Shown: positions 8,301 to 55,548 of the stretch, piece by piece
How positions within the stretch are numbered: the first letter of the stretch is position 1
Layout of the letters: each line of letters starts with the position of its first letter
Assembly (NCBI GenBank): GCA_946803715.1
Contig: CAMPET010000339.1
Location: 11,455-67,002 of the forward strand
Source of the DNA: Beroe ovata
Lineage: Eukaryota; Ctenophora; Nuda; Beroida; Beroidae
DNA: 55,548 nt
Reading direction: 5' to 3'
Position numbers and translations under genes: made by a program
Notes under the pieces: generated by a model
Databases searched by the model: none
Seen by the model: the letters and a program-made list of their open reading frames with translations, nothing else
What the model was told of the DNA's origin: nothing

Positions 8301-11300
8301 ATAACAGTATAGCGCTCTAGCTTGTCGATGACTCAACATAGAAGTACTATTATACGTGCGATTGTAAACAATATGCACTTTTTCAGAGATTTCTACCATT
8401 AATCTGAGCCAAGGAAGTGAGGTCAAGCCCCCGCCTCCGCCTTTGTTGAAGTACTCTCCGAAAAGCATGGTAAGAATTCGATGAATGTTCCACTTCATAA
8501 ACGAAATCATAAATAACTTGGAATAGGTCATATCTATGCGAGCAGTGTCTTTGACTTTTCCTGCGTCAAGCTGAATTGTTGTGGCACGTGTTCTGGCTTC
8601 AATGTCTGGAGACGTGCAAGTGACCACATTAGGTGATTCGATCATGGTGTTTCTTAGAAAATTAACATTCATCATTGGTCAAGGGTCAGCTACGCACTGA
8701 CTATAAATGGCAAAATGACACCGACATTTCCCTATTCAGGAACAAGAAGCTGGGCCGAGTACCAGCACCCGTTTCCAGCACTCAGAACAACAGAGAGTCA
8801 AACAGCACTCTCTCCGTCACGTCACACCTCCACTCAAACAATTTGAAATGAGACTCCCCGACATTGAGGTGGAAAGAAAGCATCCCGTCACTATCAAACC
8901 CAAAAAGTGTACCGTCAGGGGTCACAAACAGTTCCTTAAGTCCCTGGAAAGCCATAGTAATCGAAGACCAGCGTTTCCTGATTTTACTAAAGACTCCTCA
9001 CGTCCGTCAGCGTTTGTTAGGATCCCACATATTGAGGTTGCTAAGATTCACCCAAGGTCTGAAAAGTCAAGTCAGAGTAGGAGCTCTAGGGACATAGTTT
9101 CGGAAAAGAGCTCTGTGTCAAAAGTGAAACCAGTTCCATCAACAATGCGTGATATCCCAAGGAAAGACAAGCCAGTCAGTGTTTTGGAAGAGACTTCCCA
9201 CTCAGATTCTGAGATATCAGAGTGCACTGAGAGTAACCTGAAAACCTCGTCAATTGCCAGAACGGGATCTTTCACGGGCAAGAAATCACCCACACTCTCA
9301 TTCCATGAGAGAGTTCACTCTGAGATCCCTCCAGCCACGCTGCGAATTGGGACTCTCACCCGGCATTCGCCATTCGGGGAGCGTGTTTCACCGCCCCTCA
9401 CTAGGATATCTCCTCAACCACGTGATCAGCTTACCACGCGTGATATTGCCAATGAGCTGTCACGTGACATGCAGATACCACGTGACCCGTCCAGGGAGTT
9501 TCACCGAGATTTGCCGTTACCACGTGAGTCGTCACGTGAGTTACCGTTGCCAAGGGAAACATCACGTGAACTACCGTTACCAAGGGATACGTCACGTGAG
9601 CTACAAGTTCCTCGTGATACGTCACGTGACTTCTCACGTGATTTGCAGTTCCTGCGTGAGGGCCCACGCGAGTTTCTGCGCGATGTCAATCCCCGAGAGC
9701 CAATCAGAGAGCAGAACACACCTTCTCCCCGGTTTGAATACAAGTGTTTCAAGACCCTGTCATCATCTTATGACAATGAGAAATTGTCAGCAACTCTTGT
9801 GGATAATTTGGGAAAGAGATTCAAGCCAATCATATCATCGAAAGAGATCATAAGACGGGATGATAGTTCTAGGAAAAGCAATAATTCACTTGATAAATTC
9901 TTTATTGAGAGATATAAGGAGGGATCAAGATCACCCAATCACAAGTTGAACATTGAAAGGTAAGTGGGTAAATTTGGAATCCTTCTCGAAAATTACAAAA
10001 TATTGCACTGCTCTCAATTCAATGCCATTGGGTGGGTACATATGATGTGCTTTGTGGAATAACTCATCTTTGCTCATGTTTATCCTTATTCCAGGGTATC
10101 AATAAGGGATACTAACACAAGAGGATCTTGGGATAAGACAGATGTTGAGATGACTGAGTCGGGAGTTGATGAGGATAGACACTCCTGGCACAGGGACAGA
10201 CTCAATGTGAGTTGATTTATTTTGTGGTGCAATTATTTCAGAGAGTAATCGGTATTCATTTACTGGATTGGAGGCAAGTCCCGGCTTTTTACAGAATATC
10301 CTTCAATAGAAACAGGTCTCAATAAGTGTTTCAACTTATCCTCCTCTCAGAATGAACTGAAGAGAAAACACAGAATATCCTTCAATAGAAACAGGTCTCA
10401 ATAAGTGTTTCAACTTATCCTCCTCTCAGAATGAACTGAAGAGAAAACACAGTGTACTCCCTGTGGATGAAGAAGTTAGGAATATCTGTGGAGCTTCACC
10501 GTCATCCAACTTCAAAGCTTTCGTGCTCACATCTAATCCTTCTCAGTGTGAGTAATACCGCACATGCTATGGAGGTTTTCAGCTGACTTGCTCTGTACAT
10601 CATTTCAAGACTCAATAGTTTGACTGCACTTCATCCCATGACTCGTTGAAATGCCAAGACATTATGAGCAAGTGATCTCACCCTTTCTCTCTCTCGCAGC
10701 TGGTCCCAACCACCGGACCATTGACATCAGCGTGATGCAACCCAACAAGAGAGTGTGTTGTACTGACTCTCCTCCAAGCTTGAGGAGGCCAAGTATTAAC
10801 GTGGAAAAGATGGCACAGGTTAGGGGCGGGGTGCAAAATCATAGTTTTATTTCTATGAGATGAGCCAAAAGTCAGAGTTGTTAAGATTTAATAGCAGATT
10901 AGCAGGCCTGCTGTCATATTATCACTTAATTTTGATGGATTTTGCAATTTCCTTCATTTTTATCGTTCAGGCTGTCTTGGTGAGGCGTCCTGTTGTCAGA
11001 AAAGCAGGGAATCCTAGCATGGTTTGGGTGAGTGAGAAATGATATCTATCAGATATCATTTGTGGATTTTGGTTTAAATTCGTTTCATTCTTCCGGCCTG
11101 GCATTTCCCTCAACCACAACATGATTTATTTTTCATCTTATTTTATTGCTGTAATTAAATAATTTCTCAACTAATGATTAGAGGCACCTGTTCGGTCTCA
11201 AAGAATTCCACTCAAAACTAATTTCATTTACAGCCATATAATGCACTACACACGCATAGCTAGCAACACCATAACACACACACGGGCTTCTAACCTCCCA

Positions 11301-14990: not shown

Positions 14991-16178
14991 ATGGCTATGT
15001 CCCGGTTTGCGGCTCTCTTCATGGTAGCAGCTGTAATTTGTGTTCAAAGCAACGTACTAGCAAATGGTGAGTACCAAACACTACATCTATTTAAGAATAT
15101 ACTATTCGCTCACGTGCTTGGAGTGAGCTAGCTGGTAGGCTTTGTGCAATAATGACATTTCCAGCTAACTAGCTTTGTTAGATATACTTATTGACCTTGT
15201 TTTCATTTCAGGAGAGGAAGGCTTAAGTGAGTTTCTATAGTCTTCATTTTCACCACATTTTTCCTTAAATAATCGGTAGGTAATATCCGAAACCTCGTTC
15301 ATACACCTATTCCAATCTGATCGCCCACCATCATTTCAGGGGTGAATTTCGGAAGAAGATCATTAGACTTGGAGGAGCGAAGTAAGGATAGATCAAGTTC
15401 AATTCGATATTATTCGAAATTGATCAAATGCCAATTATATTGTTGAAACGATAATTTTTTGTTTTTTTCTGTGACAATTTTTGTTTTCCAGGGGCCAACT
15501 TCGGGAGAAGAGCTTCAGAGGAAGAGGAAGATGAGAGTGAGGAAAATGAATTGTGTTGATCATTGACTTTGAATCAATAGATAATAATTTCTTCTAGCTC
15601 TTAGATTGGTTGGTTTACCCAATGACTGTTTTCAGGGTCAAACTTTGGAAAACGAGCAGAAGAAGAAGAACGTGAGATTTGATTCCTTGATTCACCAAAT
15701 AATTTACTTGTACGAATTGCTTACTGCTCATTAAATCACAACCTCCATCAGGGGCTAATTTTGGGAGAAGATCTTTGGGGGAAGAAGAACGTAAGAAACT
15801 GATTTTTCCATATTCCTGGGACATTTTACTGCAAGGGTTCAACATAAACTGTGTTACATAGCTATTGAATGAATATATGTTTTCCAGGGTCAAATTTCGG
15901 TGAACGGTCAGCAGAGGAACTTGAAGAAGAACGTAAGAAGAATAATTTCAATCTGATTTATTTAATTATGCTAGGTCTTGAATGGTTTAAATAATTATGG
16001 GTCATTTCTCAGGATCTAACTTTGGTAAGCGTGCCCTTGGAGATGAGGAATTAGAAAGTGAGCTTATGATAATGATTATTTGAGTCTGATTAAAATCTAT
16101 TAACTCCACAAAAACTTAACAATTGAATTTACAGGGGTGAACTTCGGAAAAAGATCTGTCAAGAGATCCTTGTTGTAA
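14991..16178 (+). CDS. Neuropeptide-like precursor with seven xNFG amide units
   Basis: Nine coding exons: 14991-15066, 15212-15226, 15340-15381, 15492-15536, 15636-15671, 15752-15790, 15888-15932, 16013-16057, 16135-16178 (128 aa). Exon 1 encodes a signal peptide (MAMSRFAALFMVAAVICVQ) with a likely cut after VLA. Each later exon from 15340 on encodes one unit R-x-N-F-G followed by RR, KR or, once, ER. In order the cores are VNFGRR, ANFGRR, SNFGKR, ANFGRR, SNFGER, SNFGKR, VNFGKR. Glu-rich spacers such as SLDLEE and AEEEE separate them. Gly before a dibasic site is the classical signal for prohormone-convertase cleavage and C-terminal amidation, so the products would be RxNF-amides (or xNF-amides if cleaved after Arg). 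All internal introns are phase 1 and split the Arg codon. The ATG is chosen because it directly precedes the signal peptide. The gene converges on the Ly6/uPAR gene. I know no family with this core. Confidence 0.88.
15340..16178 (+). repeat. Tandem array of single-peptide microexons
   Basis: Seven exons of 36-45 nt alternate with introns of 77-110 nt, and each begins G-G/A then codons for x-N-F-G. The array evidently arose by repeated duplication of an exon-intron unit. Six of the exons are symmetric (phase 1 in, phase 1 out), so any subset can be skipped without frameshift; the seventh carries the stop. Confidence 0.88.
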
Positions 16179-30000: not shown

Positions 30001-33000
30001 GCGATGAATTCAATCAGGTAAGTCAGACACGATGAAAACTACTTTTTTATAGATATCTATCTCATATGTCAAACAAAATTTCATCATTATCATGTCCTTT
30101 GTAATTTCCAACACCCTAGCTGAAAGCCATGCATCGTTGATGATATGGATTTTAAGAGAGGGTCACTAATGTGTGCTAGAGTGTATGGAATCTAGATCTT
30201 AGCAAAGTCCTAATTGGACCCATAATTGTTCCTAATAGAAAATCGGTACCCTATTTAGCGGTTATGTGTACTTCATCATGATGCTCCAACAATTCAGAAT
30301 TACACTCTGAAGTTTGGAAACTATAATAACAGTTGGTTGTTTTCTGAGTTGAACCAGGTAGATTTGTTTGACCGTAGACTTGAGTGAACTAATGCTTATA
30401 CTTGTATCTTGCCGATACTGCAAATGACTGATACCATGGAAACATTCTTATTCTTGATTTTGTTGCTCTTTTCGTTTGTGCCTTTGCTTTTATTGAATAA
30501 TTCTCTATTAGAAGATTTTAGATTAATTCATAGTGAATCTATGATCTCTCATGAGCGTGTGACTATGTTCTGACTGAGTGAAGTTTGTTCCTACTAACTA
30601 CCCAGATTGCCCTTATAGATTACCAAGATTACTCTGAGGACACACCATGTTAGTTTTAAGGGGGAAGCTACTGCTAATACGTCCGAATAACATCAGATTT
30701 GTCTCACCGCAGTTTGTGGCAGTTAACAAGAGCTCGGAACAGAGTATCCTACATAGAATGACACTGCAGGGGAACGTTGGAGGGGAGTTGAGTGTCACGG
30801 GGAAAGATTGTCGTTTCTGGACTTACACCACTGGTGAGGAGCACTATATTATTCAGACTTGGGAATCGGATCAGAAAATCGATTCTCACGATTGATCAAA
30901 CCTCGAAAGAAACGTTCAACTTGATTTAAAAACTTGAAGTGGGAATTAACACTTATTAACGTCTCTAACTCCCTGAAACGTCATCCAGGCGTTTTTTAAA
31001 ATGTCATCTCAGGCATCCATATTTCGAATTAATCCCAGGTATATGCAATGCGACATACAGTAGCGATGAGGGTGGGCACTATCTATTAGGATCTTCTTCA
31101 CTGGGGGAGAATGTTACTGTTCCCTGCTCTGCGGAAAGGAACTTATCAAGCTCATGGTAAGATTGTGGATAGGAAGTTCATTTTCATCTTTCGTTTTCGA
31201 TGTAGCGGAAGATTGAAAATAGGTTTCCTAGGAAATTGACTTTAGATTGACTGGGATTTAGAAAAGATGAGTGATAACTGATGAGGGGAAACTATAGGAA
31301 TCAAGCAAAATTCTGAAAGTCTTGTAACTGCTTCTTTTGGCTATGATGACACCATTTTTACTCGTCTAGGACCTGTGACCAGAGCAGTGGGGAGTACAGC
31401 CGTTCCGACAATGAATCGTGCCCGTTTTATCAATGTGATAGTCAGCACAAGAAAACCTATGTCATAGGAGAACCAAACATCCGTCTACTGTGAGTAATCT
31501 TGACACCTGTTATGAACACCAGTGTTACCAAACTTGACACCATAATTAATATGTTTCAATTTCATGGTGGCATATTCAGATCTTTGGCTTTGGTTGCCCT
31601 TCGCTCATTCCCCTATTTCAGCGCAAGACCGTATCGATTAACGATGTCCCCATAGTAATTTAGAAATACCCAATCTATATTCTTTACTCACCACCCATCA
31701 TTTTGACACCACTCAATGACACCTCGCAGAGCGGATAGAGACATATCAGGCGAATGCTGTGGTGGAAGATGGGGATTCTCCTGTGTCAAGAACGAATCGG
31801 AGCGATTCAATTACACCTCCTGTAAGAAGCTTCGGAGTTGTTTCAACAATGATACGATAGAGTTTGGTATCACTCATCCGGGAGATAATAGGGTGGTTAA
31901 TATGAGTGTGGTTGTGGATGTAAATTTGGCAGCAGGTCATGAGGTAAGCCAAAATATGATAATTCGTCCTTATAGTTAGTTAGTTAGTTTGTCCTTATAG
32001 TTAGTTGTCACACATGACTTGTCTGAGTGAGTGGCAATGAACTTCCCTGTCACCACGTAGACAGGGGGGCCAGGGGGCGCCTCCCNTAGAAAGCTAATCA
32101 AGACGTGCTCCTATTCTTATCAGTTGACTTTGAGTGACTATATTAAACGCTCGTAACGCTATGACATCACGCAGCAACGTGTACAGTGTCCTGATGACTC
32201 TGGAATAGTGAGAGTGAAGTGTGATGGTTGTTCACAGACCAAGGTGTTTGTTTCTCACACCTGTGAACCAAAGGTGAGAACACGTGTCCAATCATGCCAT
32301 ATATGGACATATGTTGAAACTGGTAATTGAGATTTGAGGCGAAATCCTTCCTTTCATGTGAACCTCCGTATACTTCAGTACTGCCTTCTGTCCAGCGAAA
32401 TCGAGACCTTCGACTTTTCCTGGAACAATTCAACGAAATACGGGAACGGGTCCGATTTCATCTACACATTATCCGGTCCATTTTCCTCCGACAACGAGAC
32501 ACAGACAGTCCCCTGCCCTTACAATGGAACCATCTCCATATCATGTCGAGATACCAAATTCAACTTGGATTGGTCTTCATGCAGCCCGGCTCCTAAATGT
32601 CCTGCCACAACCGAGGAACCACACCCTTTGAAGGGAAATTTCGAATTTGAAAGCACTTTTGCTGCGGAGATGGTATATTCGATATGTCCAGCAAATTCAG
32701 AATCTAGAGTGTCGAGATTCTGCTCAGCGGAGGGAAAATGGGAAGATTTCGATCACGTGACCTGTGGACTGTTGCCTTGTGAATCGGAGAGATTTGAGAG
32801 GGATGGAGTGGTGTTTGATACGGGGGTGACGGAGGCAAACACCACATCTCACACGACGTGTGACCGGGGTGTGATGTGTGAGAGTGGGAGGTGTGGCACG
32901 AGAGTGTGCTTGCCTGATTCTGGGAGGTTAGTGTGAACAGCGGGTGGTATGGGGGTCACCCTTCAAACCTTGTACCAATTGCAATTATTAACCCTTCCCA

Positions 33001-36000
33001 ATAAGAATTAAGAACTTGGTCCCTGAATACTACGGGTTTTTTCAGTTGCGACATACAACCTTTTGTTGGTCTCATCCGAACATAAAACCCCTCTCGTCAT
33101 GAATTCACTACTCCCCTATTAAGCTCACCACGCCATTTACCCACCCCATTCACCTCTTTACTCCCCCACCCTCCAATTTCACTCACCACCCCCTTAACTC
33201 ACCCCTCTTCCCCCTTCCCACTCACCCCTCACCACTCCCCCCCAAGGTACTCAGCTCCCGACTTCACGTGGTGTCAATTCAACTGTTCACACGACAACAG
33301 CACTGTTATCCACGGCTCTTATAGCCCATTCTCCTGTCCGAGACATGGAGGGGAGGAGGGAGTCCGATATGTGGAATGTGAGAATAGTGTCACGACATCT
33401 GGACAGTGTGTACTTACCACTTGCCCGGTAAGTGGTGGTTGTTACCTTATTGTTGCGTTATTGTTGCCTTACTGTTGCCTTATTGTTGCGTTATTGTTGT
33501 CTGCGTTATTGTGAAAATAGTTTTACCACATCTGGTCACTGGACAGTGCGTACTTACCACTTGCACGGTAAGTACTGTTCGTCATACACTGACCATGGTC
33601 GATGTTATATATTGGCAATGGGGGNGATTTGTATTATTCATATCGTTGTGGTCTTGGTTACTTTTCCAATTTGGGCCAACATATCTAATAATAGCTGACA
33701 TATGACGAAATCCCCCTGTTTCTTTCCTAGAAATGTCTCTCAGACTCTGACTATTCCACCCTCTGTTTATTTTAGTACGGTGGGGGAGCTGGCTGTGTGG
33801 AGACAAACCCTGAGAAACTTGAGAGCCTGGCTGCTGAGGAGCTGATTGAGGATTTCAACACCTATCTTGATGACATCGATCTGTCGTCTGATCAGGCCAA
33901 GGCAGATACCGAGAATGTGGTGAATGCCGTCATGACGAAAAGTCTGGGTGACACGGAAACAGTCGGGTAAGATGGAAATTGGTAATTAATCTACCTTACA
34001 CTCAATTGATAGAACAGGGTAACTTGCTGACAGATCTTCCAGTTAGAACCGTGGATACTTTTATCGAAATCGATGTATGATCGTCACAGGTTATATACAT
34101 TCGTGAGGTTTGACGAGTCATGAATCCAAAATTTCAGTCAAGAGCACAAGGAAAAAGTAACCCAACTGGTGGACAAAGTCTCGATCAGTCTAGCTAAATC
34201 TGGGGGTAAGATCATCACGGAAACAGTAGCAATGTACGGGATACCAGCCCCAAGTCAGAATGAGGATGAGGGAGGGAGGAGGAAGAGGAGAGATGATGTT
34301 CCTGAGGATTATCTCGGCTCTAACGGGGTAATTATTGTGTAATTAGCGTAGTAATTATTGTAATTATAGTGCAATAGTGGTGTTCACGTCTTGATTTGAA
34401 ACTCTTATAGCCCCTCTACTAGCTACCTTTCCCATTACCTGGCCTCTCCCCTATGAATCTTTTCATGTCCTCCTCTGCAATGTCAGCGTTCATTTCGAAC
34501 GATTGACCAACGTATAGATATATTTCCTATCACCCCTTTCCTCGATTCGCTTTATTTCCCCGCCCCATATCCCCCTCTCTCTCCTCCCTTTCCTTCTTTT
34601 CTTATCCAATCCCCTCATCTCTCAGATAGCAGGAAGTGGTTTTAACGGGAGTATCGGACTTGCCATATACTCCGACAAGACTCTCTTCTCCCCTAAAAAC
34701 ACCTCCGAGGAGCTGCTCGTCAGTGAGGAGATAAAGAGCGTTACCACGGAGTTTGAGAGTCGGGATATCAGTGTCAATATCTCGTTCCGCATGACGGGAC
34801 GGTATAATAGGAGGTGAGTCAGATTTTGTGTGGGTTACGTCTGTGTGTCTGTGTGTGTCTGTGTGTGTGTGTCTGTGTGTGTAAGTCTGTGTGTACGTGT
34901 GTGTGTGTGCTTGTGTATGTGTGTGTCTGTGTGTGGATCGGNNNNNNNNNNNNNNNNNNNNNNNNNNNNNNNNNNNNNNNNNGTTTGTGTGTGTCTGTGT
35001 GTGTCTGTGTAAGTGTGTGTGTCTGTGTGTGTGTGTGTGTGTGTGGGTTGTCGAGGTGGCTCTTCTGAAACGGTGATATATAAGATAATTTATGAGTAGG
35101 TTTAAAGCAGTAGCGTCTATATATCAGTTCAACCTAACCCCTATCCAGACATTACTCCTATCTAGATATGTAACTCGCAGGAGATTAGGTTTCTACCCTA
35201 ACCCCCTCTTTCACTTCTCAGTGCACTGAAGTGTGTATTCTACAACACAAGCACTGGAGACTGGTTGACGGACGGGTGCTTCCCATTCTTTGACGACAAT
35301 AACTTCATCTGTCAGTGCTCCCACCTGACCAGCTTTGCTGTCCTGGTCAGTTATATAACTGGGAATGAATATGTCATAGATACTGTTCTACCACGGCTCT
35401 TGTAGGATTACTCTTTACCCTAGCTGGCGGGATTTTACCCCTGGCGGAATTACTATTGCGCGGCACCGACGGTATGGAAAACCCTACCAACAGCGGCTCA
35501 TTGGAGAAATCTGGACCTTAAAATATTGAAACCCGTTTTCAGCCCCTTATTAACATAACAGCGCCTTATCACTACCCCAACCCCTATTTAATACCCCCTC
35601 TTTCTCTACATAACCCCGAGCCCCTACACTCCAAATCTCAGGTCAGTATGGATGACATTCAGAGTGAATCACAGAGTCTGCTCACCAAGATTACTCTCTA
35701 TACTTCCTGTACTGCTCTGATTATGACCATCTGCTGCATCCTTCCCTACAGGTGTGTGTGTGTCTGTGTGTCTGTGTGTGTCTGTGTATGTGTGTGTGTG
35801 TGTGTATGTGTCTGTGTCTGTGTCTGTGTAGTACAGTGTCTGTGTCTGTGTCTGTGTAGTACAGTGTCTGTGTCTGTCTGTCTGTCTGTATGCTTGTGAG
35901 TCTATATTAATATTATATGTGTGAGTCTATATGTATGTGTGGGTTTGTTCTCGCCTAGTAACTATATCTGCCTATGACCAGAATTTCTATGACAGATTAC

Positions 36001-39000
36001 AATCTTGTCGTGTTTCAGGAAGCTCAGAAATCGTGACATAATCAAGATTCATCTGTTACTGGTGACTAGTATGCTGGTGGGGGACATCGCATTCCTATCA
36101 CTCGATGTCGCGGCTGCATCGGAAACTGCGTGTCTCGTAGCAACCGCCATCACGCATTTTGCCTGGCTGGTACGTTACGGTGGTCAATACCATGGTAACT
36201 TGGTTACGTTCGATTGTTACCATGAGAACTCAAAATAGAGGCTATATTTGGCAAGATTAAGGATGAAACCTCGTCAATCATTTTGATCAAAGACTACCTA
36301 TTGACTAATTCATAATTATCTGCCAATTACTAAATAATTATCTCCCAATTATCTCAGTCTGTATTTGGTTGGATGGTGGCGGAGGGGGTTACCATGTACA
36401 ATCAAACTGTGCTCGCTCTCAAATCCTACGGGAAGAGGGCCAACAACTACACCTGCCTTCTGGCGACTTTCGTTCATGGTAAGCGAGGTCGTGATGATAG
36501 CTTACATGATACTTCCATAGTGGCCTCTAGTTTTCAATTAGCGATTGCTATTTCATTGGTTCAATTCTCAATATGTCAAGGATGGAATTGATTTGACAGC
36601 AATTTAACAGCAATTTAACAGCATTTAACACCAATTTTCCCCGTGTCAGGTGGCGCTCTAATCCTACCCTGTCTCTGCCTGATCTTACACTTCACATGGG
36701 CAGACTTCAGCTACATCCGACCTCTGGAGCCGGGGGGAGTTTGTTTCATCAACATTCCCTGGGTTATACTCGTCACTTTCCTCGTTCCACTCTACGTTGT
36801 GTTGGTGTGTTCTGTCTTTATATTTGTTAGGTAAGAGACAGGGGATGAGGTGAATTATTTATCTATCAATTAATTAATTGATTAATTGATTAATTAATCA
36901 ATTGTTTCTCATCATTTAATTAGTTGTTAGCAGTTTGGATCAGTTTCAACTACAGTACCTCAGTTACTGTCTATGTTTTGCGTCTTGATAATTTGGTCGC
37001 TAAGAATGAAACTTGGCACAGTGCCATCAAATTCCTCTCTCTCTCACCCAGGGTGTCAATGGTTGTGATACGATCGAAAAGTCAAGGAAAACGAAAGAAG
37101 AACACAAACTATTGGAAGAAGCAGCTGCGCGCAGTGATTTCCATAGCAACCGTAACCGGCATTTCCTGGGTGATCGCTCCCTTTGTGATTCTTGGTCATG
37201 GTAGTCCTGGTAGTGGTTATTCCGTTACCATGCAGTGGATTTTCAGTGTTCTCATGGGCCTACAGGTGCGGGAAAATGTTGTTTTGAATCATTCTCAGAT
37301 CAATTCACCCTGATTTCGACTCATTCCTATTTTACTTCATTCTCATTTCGAATTACGCCTATTTTAACCAGGGCTCGACCGGGATCCCGGCCCCGGCCCC
37401 GGGAACGNGTGTGTGTGTGTGTGTCTGTGCGTGTGTGTGTGTCTGTGTGTGTGTGTGTATGTGTGTTTGTGTGTGTATGTGTGTGTCTGTGTAGTACAGT
37501 GTCTGTCTGTCTATCTGTCTGTATGCTTGTGAGTCTATACTATATGTGTGAGTCTATATGTATGTGCGCCTGCGGGTTTGTTCTAGTAAGTATATCTGTC
37601 TATGACCACAATTTCCATGACAGGTTACAATATTGTCATGTTTCAGGAAGCTCAGGAATCGTGACATTATCAAGATTCATCTGTTACTGGTGACTAGTAT
37701 GCTGGTGGGGGATATCGCATTCCTATCACTCGATGTCGCGGCCACATCGGAAACTGCGTGTCTCTTAGCAACCGCCATCACGCATTTCGCCTGGCTGGTA
37801 CGTTACGGTGGTCGATACCATGGTAACTTGGTTATGTTCCATTGTAACCATGAGAACTCAAAAAAGGGGATATACTTGGCAAGATTAAGGATGAAACCTC
37901 GTAAATGATTTTGATCAATGACTATGAACTAACTATCTCCCAATCATCTCCCAGTTACTAATTGATCTCCCAATGTCTCCCAATGATTATCTCCCAATTA
38001 CTAACTTGTTATCTCCCAATTATCTCAGTCTGTATTTGGTTGGATGGTGGCGGAGGGGTTTACCATGTACAATCAAACTGTGCTCGCTCTCAAATCTTAC
38101 GGGAAGAGGGCTAACAACTACACCTGCCTTCTGGCGACTTTCGTTCATGGTAAGCGAGATCGTGACAGCTGATGATAGCTTACATGATACTTCTATAGTG
38201 GCCTCTAGTTTTCAATTAGTGATTACTAATTCATTGGTTCATTACTTATTTAGGATGGAACAGAGAAATTTTTAATTTTTGGCGTTAAATCAATCATCGA
38301 TAACTATCGATGATTGATTTATCGCCAATTTTCCCCTTGACAGGCGGTGCTCTAATCCTACCAACTCTCTGCCTCATCTTACACTTCACCTGGGCAGACT
38401 TCAGCTACATCCGACCTCTGGAGCCGGGGGGAGTTTGCTTCATCAACATTCCCTGGGTTATACTCGTCACTTTCCTCGTTCCACTCTACGTTGTGTTGGC
38501 GTGTTCTGTCTTTCTATTTGTTAGGTGAGAGACAGGGGATGAGGTGAATTATTGATCTATCAATTAAATAATTGATTGATTAGTTAATTAATCAATTGTT
38601 ACTCATCATTTAATTGTTTTTACTAGTTTGGATCAGTTTCAACTACAGTACCTCAGTTACTGTCTATGTTTTGCGTCTTGATAATTTGGTCGCTAGGAAT
38701 GAAACTTGGCACAGTGCCATCATAAATTCCTTCTCTCACCCAGGGTGTCAATGGTCGTGATACGTTCCAAAAGTCAAGGAAAACGAAAGAAGAACACAAA
38801 CTATTGGAAGAAGCAGCTGCGCGCAGTGATTTCCATAGCAACCGTAACCGGCATCTCCTGGGTTATAGCTCCCTTCGTGATTCTTGGTCATGGCAGTCCT
38901 GGGAGTGGTTATTCCGTTACCATGCAGTGGATTTTCAGTGTTCTCATGGGCCTACAGGTACGGGAAAATGTCGTTTTGAATCATTCTCATATCAACTCGC

Positions 39001-40516
39001 TCTAATTTCGACTCATTCCTATTTTACTTCATTCTCATTTCGAATCACGCCCATTTTAACCCATTCTCATTTTAACTCATTCCCAAATCATTTTCACGAT
39101 GATATGTGGCCACTGATACCCACTCAAACAGGGCGTGGTCATATTCGTTGTTCTGGTAATTCTATCGGAGGACGTGTGCAACACGTGGGTCGACATGCTG
39201 AAGAGTTCCTCCTTCGCAAAGTTAGGATACGCCCTTGCATCTGACAACGATAAATCACGATTCGATGAGGTGAGATATTGGAGTTATAATAGCGTTAATT
39301 GGCTAATTAATTGGCTCATTAGCGCGATAAGTGGCTAATCTGTTTCGGTGTTAGATTCTGACATGCATGTTTCCGTGCATGAATCTATGAATAAAGCATA
39401 TATTGTACTTGTAGGCAACGGGTATATTGTTTTTTCATATTAGGGTTCTTATTTTAATTTCATCAAAATTATCTCAACACTCATATAACTTTGAGTCTCA
39501 AAATTGGGAGCTGAACTACCCGATTGATTTACAAGCCGGGAAAATTGATCAGGGCTATTAATCAAGCGCGAGCGTCAAAAAGGCTGATAATTTAGATAGT
39601 CCCAAGCTATATACGCCTCGTCGTTGATTCCCATGAGCAATTAGCAATGAGCAAATTAGCAATGAGCAGAGCGATGAACAATGAGCAAAAGCGCGGAGTT
39701 TTAATTTGATTTGCGTCAGGACCAAAATCAAGAAACTGCTGGATTCAGGTAAGTCGCCGAGAGAAAAAATTGCTGGGAAAAGAAAAATAGTTTCTTCATG
39801 TTATCATCGCAATCAATTTCGTCCTCCATGAATCAACAATTCCTTTTCAAATCATGAAACTTGTATAATTCCTGCAATTTTATCGCCGAAAAAGTGCTGT
39901 TATGTGCTTTTATCTCATGGCTTGTCTGCCCCTCTTTTTTGCTGAGACGTGAGTTCTTGCTTATCGCTGCTGTAAGCTCCTCTTTCATTGATTGGAACTC
40001 CTTGACACACTTCCAATAATTATGATATCCACTCTGTCTATCTGTTTTGTAACTTTGAGATGGTGTGGTAGTTATCAGTAATACTAGAATTAAATTTATG
40101 TGAAGTTAAATATGAATCTTTCATTTCAATGCATACATTTCACCCCCCTCAATCGCTATCGTTATCACACATCGATGCTGATCCACTATTCTATTATTCT
40201 TCAGGGAAACTCAAAAGTTGCGAGTTATGGTGATGAACGAAGCGCCACAAAGTCTTCCCTACTAGGCTCAATGCGCGGCTCAAACACCGATTCCCAAAGA
40301 CAAGCACCTCACGGCACGAAAACCATCAGAAGTTTGTACGAGACAAAGGAGAGTGAACTAATTGTGATCGGGAAAACTGGGTCGCAAAATAGTTTGGATC
40401 GTAATTGTGAGGAGAAACCGAGAGCGGAGAAGGATTCCTGGGTTAAGTTTGTTGAGAGTACGACGCAGGCAGCAGCAGTTGGCCCTCTTCTTGCGTGTAA
40501 TGGAACAAAGTTTTGA
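27047..40516 (+). CDS. Adhesion G-protein-coupled receptor with large Cys-rich ectodomain
   Basis: About 36 exons chain in phase: 27047-27179, 27288-27326, 27454-27627, 27864-27968, 28123-28257, 28395-28538, 28704-28842, 29001-29116, 29277-29411, 29509-29619, 29693-29732, 29906-30017, 30259-30357, 30619-30648, 30713-30833, 31039-31156, 31370-31489, 31730-31943, 32175-32273, 32379-32926, 33247-33427, 33776-33966, 34138-34327, 34626-34813, 35222-35345, 35642-35751, one helix cassette, 39132-39269, 40205-40516. With one cassette they sum to 1,611 codons. Order: signal peptide; about 500 residues of unknown fold; Cys-rich modules (CNATYSS...SSSWTC, and a sushi-like [12 protein letters not shown]); RRKRR furin-like site near residue 1082; GPS motif W...GC...[12 protein letters not shown] with predicted cleavage HL/T near 1196, leaving tethered agonist TSFAVLVS; helix 1 on 35642-35751; tail ending TKF, a possible PDZ ligand. 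Family known, ligand unknown. Exon 30619-30648 and its 64-bp intron are the weakest part. Confidence 0.82.
33430..33580 (+). repeat. TTGTTGCGTTA minisatellite plus partial exon-end duplicate
   Basis: After exon 33247-33427 come several 11-nt units of TTGTTGC(G/C)TTA type, then at about 33525-33574 a diverged copy of the end of that exon with its donor (CTTACCACTTGC then GGTAAGT). The duplicate has no acceptor of its own and is probably unused. An N follows at 33625. Confidence 0.65.
34830..35045 (+). repeat. TG/TCTG microsatellite with a 41-N gap
   Basis: A long TG-rich run is broken by 41 Ns (34942-34982) in the intron between exons 34626-34813 and 35222-35345. The frames it opens are artefacts of the repeat. 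Confidence 0.9.
35222..35345 (+). other. GPS autoproteolysis-motif exon
   Basis: This exon holds the two pairs of Cys, the Trp and the HLTSFAVL end of the GPCR proteolysis site. In known adhesion GPCRs cleavage occurs before the Thr, and the new N-terminus acts as tethered agonist. All key residues are present. Confidence 0.85.
35400..35490 (+). mobile_element. Degenerate MITE, sibling of the element at 50567
   Basis: The 91-bp stretch begins TTGTAGGATTACT and ends ACCCTACCAA. In reverse orientation it matches the clean MITE at 50567-50663, sharing GCTGGCGGGATTTTA, CCCTGGC and GCACCGACGGTA. The 9-bp flanks agree at 7 of 9 positions. It sits in the intron between the GPS exon and the helix-1 exon. 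Confidence 0.65.
35752..37370 (+). repeat. Tandem segmental duplication, copy A (helices 2-7)
   Basis: This 1.6-kb block contains exons 36019-36169, 36358-36478, 36650-36830 and 37052-37265, encoding most of the seven-helix bundle, and is repeated at 37409-39062. Both copies have the same exon lengths (151, 121, 181, 214 nt). Introns align well but with substitutions and some length differences. Copy A reads [24 protein letters not shown] and LVCSVFIF at variable sites. Confidence 0.85.
37409..37500 (+). repeat. TG/TCTG microsatellite at the copy B start
   Basis: A TG-rich run follows directly after the N at 37408 and corresponds to the run at 35752-35880 that begins copy A. Confidence 0.85.
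38281..38326. repeat. Near-perfect palindrome in copy B only
   Basis: Arms TAAATCAATCATCGAT and ATCGATGATTGATTTA flank a 4-nt loop. With one mismatch the pairing extends to GGCG/CGCC. The corresponding copy A intron has no such palindrome. Confidence 0.8.
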
Positions 40517-42085: not shown

Positions 42086-42481
42086 AACTATCTGCATTGA
42101 TCGATAATCGCAATACCTTGCATGCGACGTTGACATGTTGTGTTATCATGGACAGCAGTAGGCGACGATCAAAAATATTTCCTTTTGACACATGGCCATG
42201 GTGCTGGTATAGGTATGCAGTATTCACTATGCAGCAATAGTAATGAAAATAGACAAGTACAGAGAAAAAAGTTGCAGCATTTTAAAGTTTGTGATATTTT
42301 GTCAATGATAACGTGAACTCATGTAATGCTGACAAATCATATGTCATCTTGTGATGCTGGCCATCCCTGGTTCTTTACACTGATCAACTTTAATTCTCAG
42401 TTTAGTCTAAAGAAAGGATATGGAGCATTAAAATGTTATGAATAAGAGAGCTGAAAGGGATTGTGGAACAATTGAGCTGAA

Positions 42482-45400
42482 ATGGATGATAGTCACAGGA
42501 AGATGGAGACTTTTATAACCAATGTTCTAGAAATTCCCTATGACAATGATACCCTACAAAGTCTTTCGACAGAACAGGAGCTACTACGTTATGCTGAGAA
42601 TGAACTTTTTTGTGCTCTTCTCAAGATTAAATCTCAGCAAATGAACATCATGCAAGCATCAACAAATACTCAAAACATGGAGTTGAGAAGGAAAATAGTT
42701 GCCAAGAAGAATGAGAGACAAGTGTTGGTGTATTTGATAGATGTTTGGGAGCGTATCCATGGTAATGCATATCTTGGGAATGGTCCAAGCTGGAATTTAT
42801 TTTGTTCTAGTTTCACTGACCTTCTCATGAGGCAAGTTTTTGGCTTCTTATTACATATTGATGTATATTCAACTTATCTCTTAATGAACTTGTAATTTAT
42901 CATGATACTTCCCAGGTACATTGGCTTAGTCTTGACTGGAGTTCTCACTGACAATGTTGAGATGGGTCCTGTTCAGAGCTCACCACTGTCTTGTCTCTTC
43001 ATCCGTAATCATCAATCCTTTCCACTACCTATTCCTGAAAGGGCACAGTTCATTGAAAAACTCCTAACTGCTACTCAGAAAACAGAAACTTATCATCAAA
43101 TATTCAGTGCTCTTGTTTTCGATCATATGGGCAGAGCCAAGAACAATAACATCATGGATGCTAATGTTTATGATGTTTATCACTCCTTGGATGTTCTCAC
43201 AGGGGTCAAATCAAATAACACAAGACCCCTGGTTTCACTTATTATCAATTTGGATATCTGGTGTCCTTCCTTGATCAAAAACGGTAAACAAATTGAGAAT
43301 TATTCATTTCTTGGCCCTTTTCTCGGTTTGTCAGGATACCTGGAAGATAATAACAAGATGGTCACAAATAAAAATTTAGATCTGGAACAGTTGAAGCATG
43401 ATTTGCCACCAATTATCAGGCAATCTAGAGATATCATGTTCAGAATAATGTACAATTTGCTCCTTCCCAAGGACACAAGGAACTCCATCCTGTCATACTT
43501 TGCAAATATCCTGAATCTGAATGCTAAGAAAAGTGGAATTCAAGCTCAGGAAGAATATTTAGCAAGTGATGGCTTCATGCTCAACTTCCTTTCTGTTATT
43601 TTGGATCTTTCTGTTAAAGTAGCAGTTGAGAAAGTTGATAAGGACTATTTTCAGAGTGAGTGTTGTAAACTTGACTTTTCTGAAATAACTCGTGTCAATG
43701 CTAATACAGAAGAAGTTGAAGAGTTAAGTGGGTCACTTAGTGGAAACAAGCAGCCAAATTTCAGTACTGAGTGCTTCCTGATGGCAATATATTCAGTGCA
43801 TCTCTCATTACTTCCAGCACTCAGGAAGCAGATTGGTAGAGTTCAGAAAATCAAAGATTTGTCTAACATGATCAGAGATTTAACTAAAAATGGACAGCCT
43901 CCTTCTGGATCAAGGGCAGATATTCAAACGAAAATAGCCCAAGCAAAGTTAGAAGAATGGAAAAGGGGTGAGAAAATTGCACAGATTACAACTTTCGAAA
44001 CCGAACTTCTCCAGAAATTCTCTGATTTCTACGGGAAAGTCTGTTTATGGATACTGTCAGTCATGGATCCAGACAAGCAATGGACGAACGGTGGACTCAA
44101 CAAGCTCCACCGTAACAAGCTCTTCGATACCATGCCAGAATTCATCATTGATGACATAGCAGACGTTCTGATTCAATCATCTCGGTTTCAGATTAACCTC
44201 CTTGGCAACCTGAATATTGGACCAGTTTGCCAACTTATCCAAACCTGTGTTTGTCATCCCTCTCACTTCCGAAACCCCTATCTTGTCAGCAAACTGATTG
44301 AAGTGATCTACATGTATAGTCCTGATGTACAGGGAAACATCACCCCTCTCTTCGAGAAAATCATAACCCCATCAAGCTCAGAGCAACATCTCATCCCGGC
44401 ATTACTCAACTTTTACACGGATGTGGAGAGTACTGGTGCATCCAGTGAGTTTTACGACAAGTTCTCGATACGATACCATATTTCTATCATTACTAAAACT
44501 CTCTGGTATGCCAAGAACACCTCTCATCGACTCACAATCATCCAATGTTTGAGGGATTCTCAGTTTATTAGGTTCATCAACATGTTGATCAATGATACCA
44601 CCTTCTTGCTTGACGAAAGTATAGATTCACTGCGTTCTATTCGAGATACACAGAAACTGATGGCTGATCAAAGCAAGTGGGACCAGTTATCGGAAGACAA
44701 TAAAACACAAAAACTAAACCAATTGAAACAAGATGAGCGTCAGTGTAAGAGCTATTTGACCCTTGCAAATGAAACAGTCCTCATGCTATTCTATCTAACG
44801 GAAAGTGTGCAAAGTCCCTTCCTAAGGGCTGAACTTGTTGATAGGGTAGCTGCTATGCTGAACTACAACTTGCTACAACTCTGTGGACCCAAATGTGCTG
44901 ATCTGAAAGTTCTCGATCCTCTAAAGTACGGTTTTCAACCCAAGGAACTTGTCAAGCAAATCACGGATATCTACATCAATCTGGACAGCCCAGCTTTCCT
45001 AGATGCCGTTGCTGGTGATGAACGATCGTACAAACCAGAACTCTTCGCCCTAGCTATCACAAGACTGACAAATGCAGCTATCAAGACACCACACGAAATC
45101 GAAACTTTCAAAAACTTCACTGAGAAAGTGAAGAAGAAGTTTGATAAGAAGCAGGAAATGGATTTGGAATTTGACGACGCACCTGACGAGTTTAGAGACC
45201 CCCTGATGAGCACTATGATGCGACAACCGGTCAGATTGCCCAGTGGTATGATCATGGATAAACCAATCATAGACCGGCATCTGCTGAACAGCTCTACTGA
45301 TCCATTCAACAGACAGCATCTGACTTCAGATATGCTGATACCTGAGACTGAGCTTCAGGAGAGGATAGAGGCATGGATTAAAGAAAAGCTTGGAAATTAG
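42482..45400 (+). CDS. UBE4B: Ubiquitin conjugation factor E4 (Ufd2/UBE4B family)
   Basis: Two exons: 42482-42831 and 42916-45400, giving 944 aa. The protein is an E4/E3 enzyme that extends ubiquitin chains on substrates handed on by p97/CDC48. The long alpha-helical Ufd2 core fills most of the length. The C-terminus is a U-box ([21 protein letters not shown], then [15 protein letters not shown] and [10 protein letters not shown]) of clear UBE4B type. The intron is GC-AG: donor AG/GCAAGT, acceptor CCCAG, with phase 2 preserved across it. An in-frame TGA at 42473 just upstream supports the ATG. The length is close to yeast Ufd2 and shorter than vertebrate UBE4B, so the animal N-terminal extension is absent or lies on an unseen exon. 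The 2.5-kb second exon is unusual among these intron-rich neighbours. Confidence 0.93.
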
Positions 45401-54947: not shown

Positions 54948-55240
54948 GACTGCAGATGTATAAATGCGGACAAAAACTGTCACTCAAAAAAGTCGGTATA
55001 AATCTTCAGAATTGGACTCGTCGAACACTAGGAACGCCTTATATCAGTACCACATATAATTACACTATTGTCAATCTGAATAAACAGTTTCTATGAAGTA
55101 GCAATGGTATAATGAACTTGTTCATTAGTGATCATTATACACANGTTTCTACATTTATAGTATGCCTCTCGTTCTCACTGTTATACCGAACTAATAATTC
55201 CCCTGCTTCGTACGATAACCCATGTGAGCCTCATCAGGTC
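54948..55240. other. Promoter side of the secreted gene
   Basis: About 290 bp, AT-rich, with a single N at 55144. No exon seen. Confidence 0.4.
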
Positions 55241-55548
55241 ATGGGACACATAGGCAACACAGCCGTGAACCTTGTGCAAGATGTGATACAAGGAGCCATG
55301 GCAAAATGTACAGTGGACGATATCTTGTATCGGGTGACAGCAGCAAAACTGGTGGACGATACCTTGCTTCGAGCAACAGCAAAATACACAGTGGACAGTA
55401 TTCTCTACAAAGCAATCGCTGTCCGATTGGTAGAATGTGTTTTGTACAGAGCTACAGTATTTCAAAAAGTGGACGATGATTTGTGCAAAGCAACTGTATT
55501 TCAAAAAGTGGACGATGATTTGTGCAGAGCTACTGTATTTCAAAAAGT
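55241..55548 (+). CDS. Possible repeat protein running off the window (low confidence)
   Basis: From the ATG at 55241 the plus frame stays open to the window edge. It reads MGHIGNTAVNLVQDVIQGAM and then 13-residue units such as VDDTLLRATAKYT and VDDDLCKATVFQK. The unit is amphipathic, with conserved V-D-D-x-L and R/K-A-T positions. The minus strand is also open across the same array, with FLKYSSSAQIIVH-type units, so coding strand and reality are unproven. No family recognised. Confidence 0.3.
   Translation, partial: MGHIGNTAVNLVQDVIQGAMAKCTVDDILYRVTAAKLVDDTLLRATAKYTVDSILYKAIAVRLVECVLYRATVFQKVDDDLCKATVFQKVDDDLCRATVFQK
55274..55546 (+). repeat. Seven tandem 39-bp units
   Basis: Units start at 55274, 55313, 55352, 55391, 55430, 55469 and 55508, each exactly 39 nt. 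The last two are almost identical and the earlier ones increasingly diverged. The array continues beyond the window. The constant multiple-of-three length keeps a frame open on both strands. Confidence 0.85.

Follow-up and report, generated by a model that had tools for sequence, protein, structure and literature searches.

A predicted multi-copy RxNF-amide precursor gene split into microexons in a probable ctenophore genome

What is encoded by a row of microexons that repeat the same few residues and, if it is a peptide precursor, which peptides would be released from it and do they belong to any described family? This question is raised by positions 14991-16178 of a 55,548-nt stretch of genomic DNA (hereafter the window), where an initial annotation had placed a precursor of seven amidated peptides. 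The observation of a predicted peptide gene at this site was confirmed, and its deduced product is very probably a secreted multi-copy precursor of amidated peptides. As a whole, with mature RxNF-amides included, the best explanation is a single gene for a secreted precursor of a neuropeptide or endocrine peptide, which we consider moderately likely.

Gene structure and the repeated core

The gene lies on the forward strand, from an ATG at 14991 to a stop codon that ends at 16178, and these are exactly the bounds first proposed. An in-frame stop is found close upstream of the ATG. Nine exons of 76, 15, 42, 45, 36, 39, 45, 45 and 44 nt are joined into a 387-nt open frame for a protein of 128 aa, MAMSRFAALFMVAAVICVQSNVLANGEEGLRVNFGRRSLDLEERRANFGRRASEEEEDERSNFGKRAEEEERANFGRRSLGEEERSNFGERSAEELEEERSNFGKRALGDEELERVNFGKRSVKRSLL; this model, joined by eye and with anchor strings, is known from genomic sequence alone. 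The eight introns are all GT-AG, all in phase 1 and 77-145 nt long. The exons are as follows.

14991..15066, + strand: exon 1, start codon and signal-peptide-like region MAMSRFAALFMVAAVICVQSNVLAN, ending in phase 1 (from the joining and hydropathy)
15212..15226, + strand: exon 2, 15-nt microexon, GEEGL; gives the first base of the first junction Arg codon
15340..15381, + strand: exon 3, unit 1, R-VNFG-RR and spacer SLDLEER; preceded by Leu
15492..15536, + strand: exon 4, unit 2, R-ANFG-RR and spacer ASEEEEDE; preceded by Arg, no acidic residue
15636..15671, + strand: exon 5, unit 3, R-SNFG-KR and spacer AEEEE
15752..15790, + strand: exon 6, unit 4, R-ANFG-RR and spacer SLGEEE
15888..15932, + strand: exon 7, unit 5, R-SNFG-ER (degenerate processing site) and spacer SAEELEEE
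16013..16057, + strand: exon 8, unit 6, R-SNFG-KR and spacer ALGDEELE
16135..16178, + strand: exon 9, unit 7, R-VNFG-KR, tail SVKRSLL and stop codon

The R-x-N-F-G core is present in all seven units, one per microexon, with x being V, A, S, A, S, S and V in order. Seven units of the form R-x-N-F-G-(R/K)R had been annotated; the core and the choice of V, A or S at x hold throughout, and the Gly is followed by KR or RR in six of the seven units only, since unit 5 carries ER, by which the processing signal would be weakened or lost. The Glu-rich spacers described at the outset were borne out in the nine-exon translation: they are acidic, 5-8 residues long and variable in both sequence and length, and the repeats are free of cysteine. 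A precursor so repetitive and acidic would not be expected to adopt a fold. Glu stands directly before the unit Arg in five of the seven units, Leu in unit 1 and Arg in unit 2. At the other end of the protein, residues 8-18 form an 11-residue hydropathy maximum (mean 3.05), followed by V-L-A and then N-G. On this hydropathy profile, which is not the output of a trained predictor, the N-terminus appears signal-peptide-like.

The codons of the repeated core carry a clear signature. Among the 21 copy pairs, which make 63 codon comparisons and are not independent of one another, the N-F-G codons differ in 0 of 63 cases at position 1, in 0 of 63 at position 2 and in 40 of 63 at position 3. In these codons the seven copies differ by silent changes only, and the codon test played no part in finding the gene. 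Because the differences are confined to the third position, the N-F-G core is under purifying selection; its codons are fixed in meaning while the spacers differ. The introns between the copies, on the other hand, are essentially unrelated: two of the 28 pairs score higher than any of 30 shuffles, where chance would give about one. Therefore, the copies are of old origin, and their peptide core has been preserved.

The layout, with one exon for each peptide, is unusually tidy. The Arg of each unit is split over a splice junction, with exons 2-8 ending in A or C and exons 3-9 beginning with GG or GA, and any forward pairing among exons 2-9 (28/28) encodes Arg. Exon 1 ends in G, and its pairing with any of the eight later exons gives Gly; without exon 2, the junction of exon 1 would thus provide Gly instead of Arg. 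Exons 2-8 are all multiples of three in length, and each of the 128 possible subsets of them stays open to the normal stop. Since these lengths keep the frame and the Arg is always rebuilt, copy number can be changed by exon gain, exon loss or alternative splicing without a break of the frame. That the locus is an array of one-peptide-per-microexon cassettes, in which any pairing of exons 2-9 is productive, and that it encodes an undescribed RxNF-amide family of the ctenophore lineage, is a proposal on which we are evenly divided. If it is true, the same three routes could tune peptide dose while the peptides stay intact. The junction-encoded Arg and the frame-neutral exons make a splice-robust peptide array a testable idea.

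Processing and the predicted mature peptides

In the proposed pathway, the precursor would enter the secretory pathway and be cut after GKR or GRR by a convertase of the furin/PC type; a carboxypeptidase would trim the basic residues, and the Gly left at the C-terminus would be turned into an amide by PAM. A cut after the acidic residue before Arg would free the N-terminus. Peptidergic cells would then release mainly RSNF-amide, RANF-amide and RVNF-amide, which would act on a putative receptor; the calculated [M+H]+ is 522.2783 for RSNF-amide, 506.2834 for RANF-amide and 534.3147 for RVNF-amide. Acidic N-terminal cleavage fits five of the seven units, unit 1 following Leu and unit 2 following Arg.

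The acidic cut, on which peptide length depends, is less certain than the presence of convertases. Release of RxNF-amides needs it, because the dibasic sites alone would leave mostly longer acidic amides. If the convertases cut at dibasic sites only, the same gene would yield NGEEGLRVNF-amide, ASEEEEDERSNF-amide, AEEEERANF-amide, ALGDEELERVNF-amide, ANF-amide from unit 2 and one fusion of two copies across G-E-R. The products had initially been described as only three or four residues long; this size is left unsettled by the dibasic sites, which by themselves would give N-extended peptides such as ASEEEEDERSNF-amide, with a calculated [M+H]+ of 1440.5874. Such N-extended amides are an unlikely alternative. 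The spacers hold no basic residue save the Arg before x and an extra Arg before unit 2, and no dibasic site accompanies the Glu that precedes five of the seven units. Against this, the spacers vary in sequence and over 5-8 residues while N-F-G is fixed, and cleavage at acidic residues has been described as a main route of processing in the ctenophore Bolinopsis mikado and in Nematostella (main text of PMC9525235), as well as for cnidarian and placozoan precursors (relevant part of PMC9545775).

It is also conceivable, but distinctly improbable, that cleavage takes place at the junction Arg, and then the tripeptides VNF-, ANF- and SNF-amide would be made, with calculated [M+H]+ values of 378.2136, 350.1823 and 366.1772, respectively. 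Arg stands before x in all seven units and is kept at every junction, and in unit 2, where a true dibasic RR precedes x, the product would be ANF-amide. Monobasic cleavage is generally favoured by an adjoining second basic residue, however, and six of the seven units have none beside the Arg. The small size also speaks against these products, as tripeptides are at the lower end of the range known for amidated peptides.

The initial annotation suggested a look for PAM and prohormone-convertase genes in the same genome, and PAM-like exons as well as three convertase loci are found there. Exons on one contig (C9) match peptidylglycine alpha-hydroxylating monooxygenase, including the stretches FAYRTHTHKLG and VHHILIYGC, although the first of these PHM exons is under the Pfam cut-off. 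Downstream on the same strand lies an NHL-repeat exon that is PAL-like. Both the PHM-like and the PAL-like exons match PAM structures. For the PAL-like exon, the top PDB matches are designed NHL-repeat proteins, and PAM comes 24th and 25th of 41 matches; these two PAM matches are the only ones that have an individually significant stretch. P_proprotein domains occur at three loci (on C20, C332 and C21), and at two of the convertase loci the pro-domain, S8 domain and P-domain share one open frame. In a protein search with one convertase, relatives without names matched at 56-74%, and named relatives at no more than 58% among the 120 matches listed of 5565. Convertases are present, and amidation is likely to be possible in this animal, as judged from these predicted exons.

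The gene architecture of several of these and other loci differs from that of the peptide gene. Two convertases (L031, L032), the innexins (L036) and two glutamate receptors (L040, L041) have long unbroken open frames, in which they differ from the peptide gene with its nine exons. The remaining convertase (L033) is split.

A secreted multi-copy peptide made by the same enzymes could also have a role other than signalling, for instance antimicrobial, venomous or structural, which we regard as very improbable. A signal-like start, repeats and dibasic sites alone are no proof of signalling. Membrane-active or disulfide-rich peptides are typically unlike acidic-spaced, cysteine-free tetrapeptide amides, and the conserved tetrapeptides, the Gly amide donor, the acidic spacers and the absence of cysteine from the repeats fit signalling amides better. 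The PAM-like exons and convertases in the same genome point in the same direction.

It was also asked how far the motif cluster is particular to this locus. N-F-G followed by basic residues is by itself common in the genome (261 matches versus 196 for a reversed control). A splice-aware exon motif has 10 exact matches in 77.8 Mb (534 contigs), 7 of which are the exons of this gene, inside 0.82 kb, and the reversed control has 0; the pattern was written from the exons, and the count speaks for clustering and uniqueness rather than being an independent discovery statistic. Around each of the other three exact matches (on C18, C24 and C40), the 3-kb locus contains no further unit. A looser splice-aware pattern has 22 matches, 6 of them in these exons and 16 on 15 other contigs, and its reversed control has 10; two identical matches lie 2.5 kb apart on one contig (C38). 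No paralog of the peptide gene was found under the two splice-aware patterns in the 77.8 Mb.

A chance or non-coding repeat array that happens to read through is barely credible: the exons were indeed joined by eye and anchor strings from genomic DNA, but the N-F-G codons show no change at positions 1-2 against 40/63 at position 3, the introns are unrelated between copies and all phase-1 GT-AG, and the motif cluster is unique. Non-signalling roles and error are improbable even when taken together.

Relation to described peptides

If the locus is a precursor of RxNF-amides, as we prefer to read it, to which peptides are they related? No homolog of the 128-aa precursor was found at E<=10 among 373 candidates in a protein collection, for which predictors that do not model splicing would miss such genes. 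Placement in a known family by a profile search had been named in advance as evidence against the annotation, and no Pfam family was matched at E<=0.1. Coding sequence spread over nine exons of 15-76 nt can be missed by protein sets built without splicing. The C-terminal Arg-Phe-amide of RFamide/FMRFamide-like peptides is absent here, and all seven cores end in N-F-G.

Mass spectrometry has already revealed amidated peptides in ctenophores (PMC9525235). B. mikado yielded thirteen precursors, ten of which are named in the main text of that paper, and the precursors named for B. mikado and Mnemiopsis leidyi are those of NPWa, FGLa, RWFa, VWYa, WTGa, NVFa/NIFa1 and 2, TFQa, LNSa and PARa. None of the ten precursors named in the main text has an NF-amide ending, and a look through that text for NFa, SNF, ANF and VNF gave 0 occurrences. 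The precursors of these two species resemble the present one in probably belonging to the same phylum and in having short C-terminal amides, basic and acidic cleavage sites and a Gly donor. They differ in that NVFa/NIFa end in V/I-F and never in NF-amide, in a comparison of peptide ends (PMC9525235, main text). The ctenophore peptides have no detected similarity to cnidarian or bilaterian ones, as stated in the same text.

In layout, Antho-RFamide and the placozoan PRWamide are close parallels, with many near-identical amidated copies and acidic or other non-basic residues before each (relevant part of PMC9545775). Their C-termini are RF- or RW-amide, whereas an NF-amide is predicted here, and the likeness is one of layout, with no homology claimed. 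It had been stated at first that no family with an xNF-amide core was described; this has to be corrected, as NNFamide has been described from the hemichordate Saccoglossus kowalevskii (PMC10508912, in the part that names it). By name, this peptide shares the N-F-amide C-terminus, but x is V, A or S in the present units and never N, the animal is distant, and the comparison is by name only. Convergence on two residues would be easy. In a literature search for NFamide-type names, the hemichordate NNFamide was the sole neuropeptide case by title, and a search combining ctenophore peptide names with RNFa returned no RNFa. On these searches and the main text of PMC9525235, the RxNF-amides are probably undescribed, and it is probable that they are a new family of a kind already established in ctenophores.

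Two of the known ctenophore peptides were also looked for in the genome. Dibasic-flanked VWY-Gly has 7 matches versus 7 in the control and dibasic-flanked NPW-Gly 3 versus 5, without a precursor-like locus for either; two of the VWY matches, on one contig (C137), are copies of one repeat with stops adjoining. These counts argue neither way, for the flanking residues of the ctenophore peptides were assumed and the true ones may differ.

Genome of origin and other features of the window

Innexins, which also occur in cnidarians and bilaterians, have 14 matches in the genome, three of them without inner stops and with open frames of 471, 480 and 539 aa. Four of the 14 lie within 25.3 kb on one contig (C34, 252,170-277,507), one of the four being under the cut-off. 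In three ctenophores, INXB, INXC and INXD are found within 40 kb of each other, and the four clustered matches may be this INXB-D cluster. No innexin has been identified in a sponge or a placozoan, and the presence of innexins here excludes both groups (all as far as covered in the relevant part of PMC9949713). A sponge, a glass sponge (PMC10282587 and PMC10280926, in part) and a placozoan had been considered in view of the long unbroken open frames, and were rejected on the innexins.

Two of the six glutamate receptor matches were compared with solved structures. In one of them (L041), the glutamate-binding S2 segment scores 118 bits to ML032222a, 91 to 4zdm, which we take to be a Pleurobrachia receptor structure, and 41 to the next solved structure; the S1 segment scores 111, 83 and 55 bits, respectively, both segments being cut from the whole-protein alignment. 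At whole length, ML032222a leads kainate-2 only narrowly (219 versus 212 bits), because the chain of ML032222a covers no more than the binding domain. In the other receptor (L040), kainate-2 is ahead at whole length with 219 bits against 196 for ML032222a. Gene models of Mnemiopsis carry the prefix ML (main text of PMC9525235). The first receptor appears to be of ctenophore type and the genome is probably that of a ctenophore, a placement that comes mainly from this one receptor, since innexins by themselves would fit a cnidarian or a bilaterian as well.

Thus, the possibility of a sponge, raised in the initial annotation, is contradicted by the innexins and the ctenophore-type glutamate receptor, and the gene has no bearing on sponges. 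The multi-copy amidated-peptide precursor in an early-branching animal stands; besides the sponge, the xNF claim, the size of three or four residues and a K or R after every Gly, missing in one unit, were not supported as first given. Sponge ribosomal peptides were likewise dropped as relatives, the genome not being that of a sponge. If the animal is a ctenophore, the gene adds a probable peptide family to a possible sister group of the other animals.

Wnt has 9 matches on 4 contigs, convincing on three of them, and one match, in a stretch of 23% GC, is probably spurious. To our knowledge, glass sponges lack Wnt. COX1 had no match in the 77.8-Mb assembly. Three loci (L005, L008 and L015, on C2, C3 and C64) lie in stretches of 23-26% GC, compared with 37-48% in the other 25 loci, and the stretch on C64 sits in an open frame of 6,033 aa. 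These low-GC stretches may represent DNA of foreign origin, contamination from a symbiont or a highly repetitive gene.

Several other genes and open frames share the window with the peptide precursor. UBE4B (Ufd2 core and U-box) occupies 42896-45397 as one 834-aa open frame, stop to stop, compared with 1046-1187 aa in its named homologs. An additional exon may be represented by the open frame immediately upstream (42476-42892). The four closest relatives of UBE4B are ENA proteins at 77-90% identity, and an alignment scan of genome and viral contig collections had no confirmed match. At 8719-9963 there is a 414-aa open frame with tandem repeats of the type Ser-Arg-Glu-Leu-Pro-Leu-Pro-Arg and no Pfam match, and short tandem repeats that contain Cys make up another open frame, at 55097-55546, which runs into the window end. 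Two tandem adhesion-GPCR-like genes, or a partial duplication, are found at 32331-39241, with a GPS motif at 35202-35402 and near-identical membrane-segment exons, as compared by eye, at about 36.0-37.3 kb and 37.6-39.0 kb.
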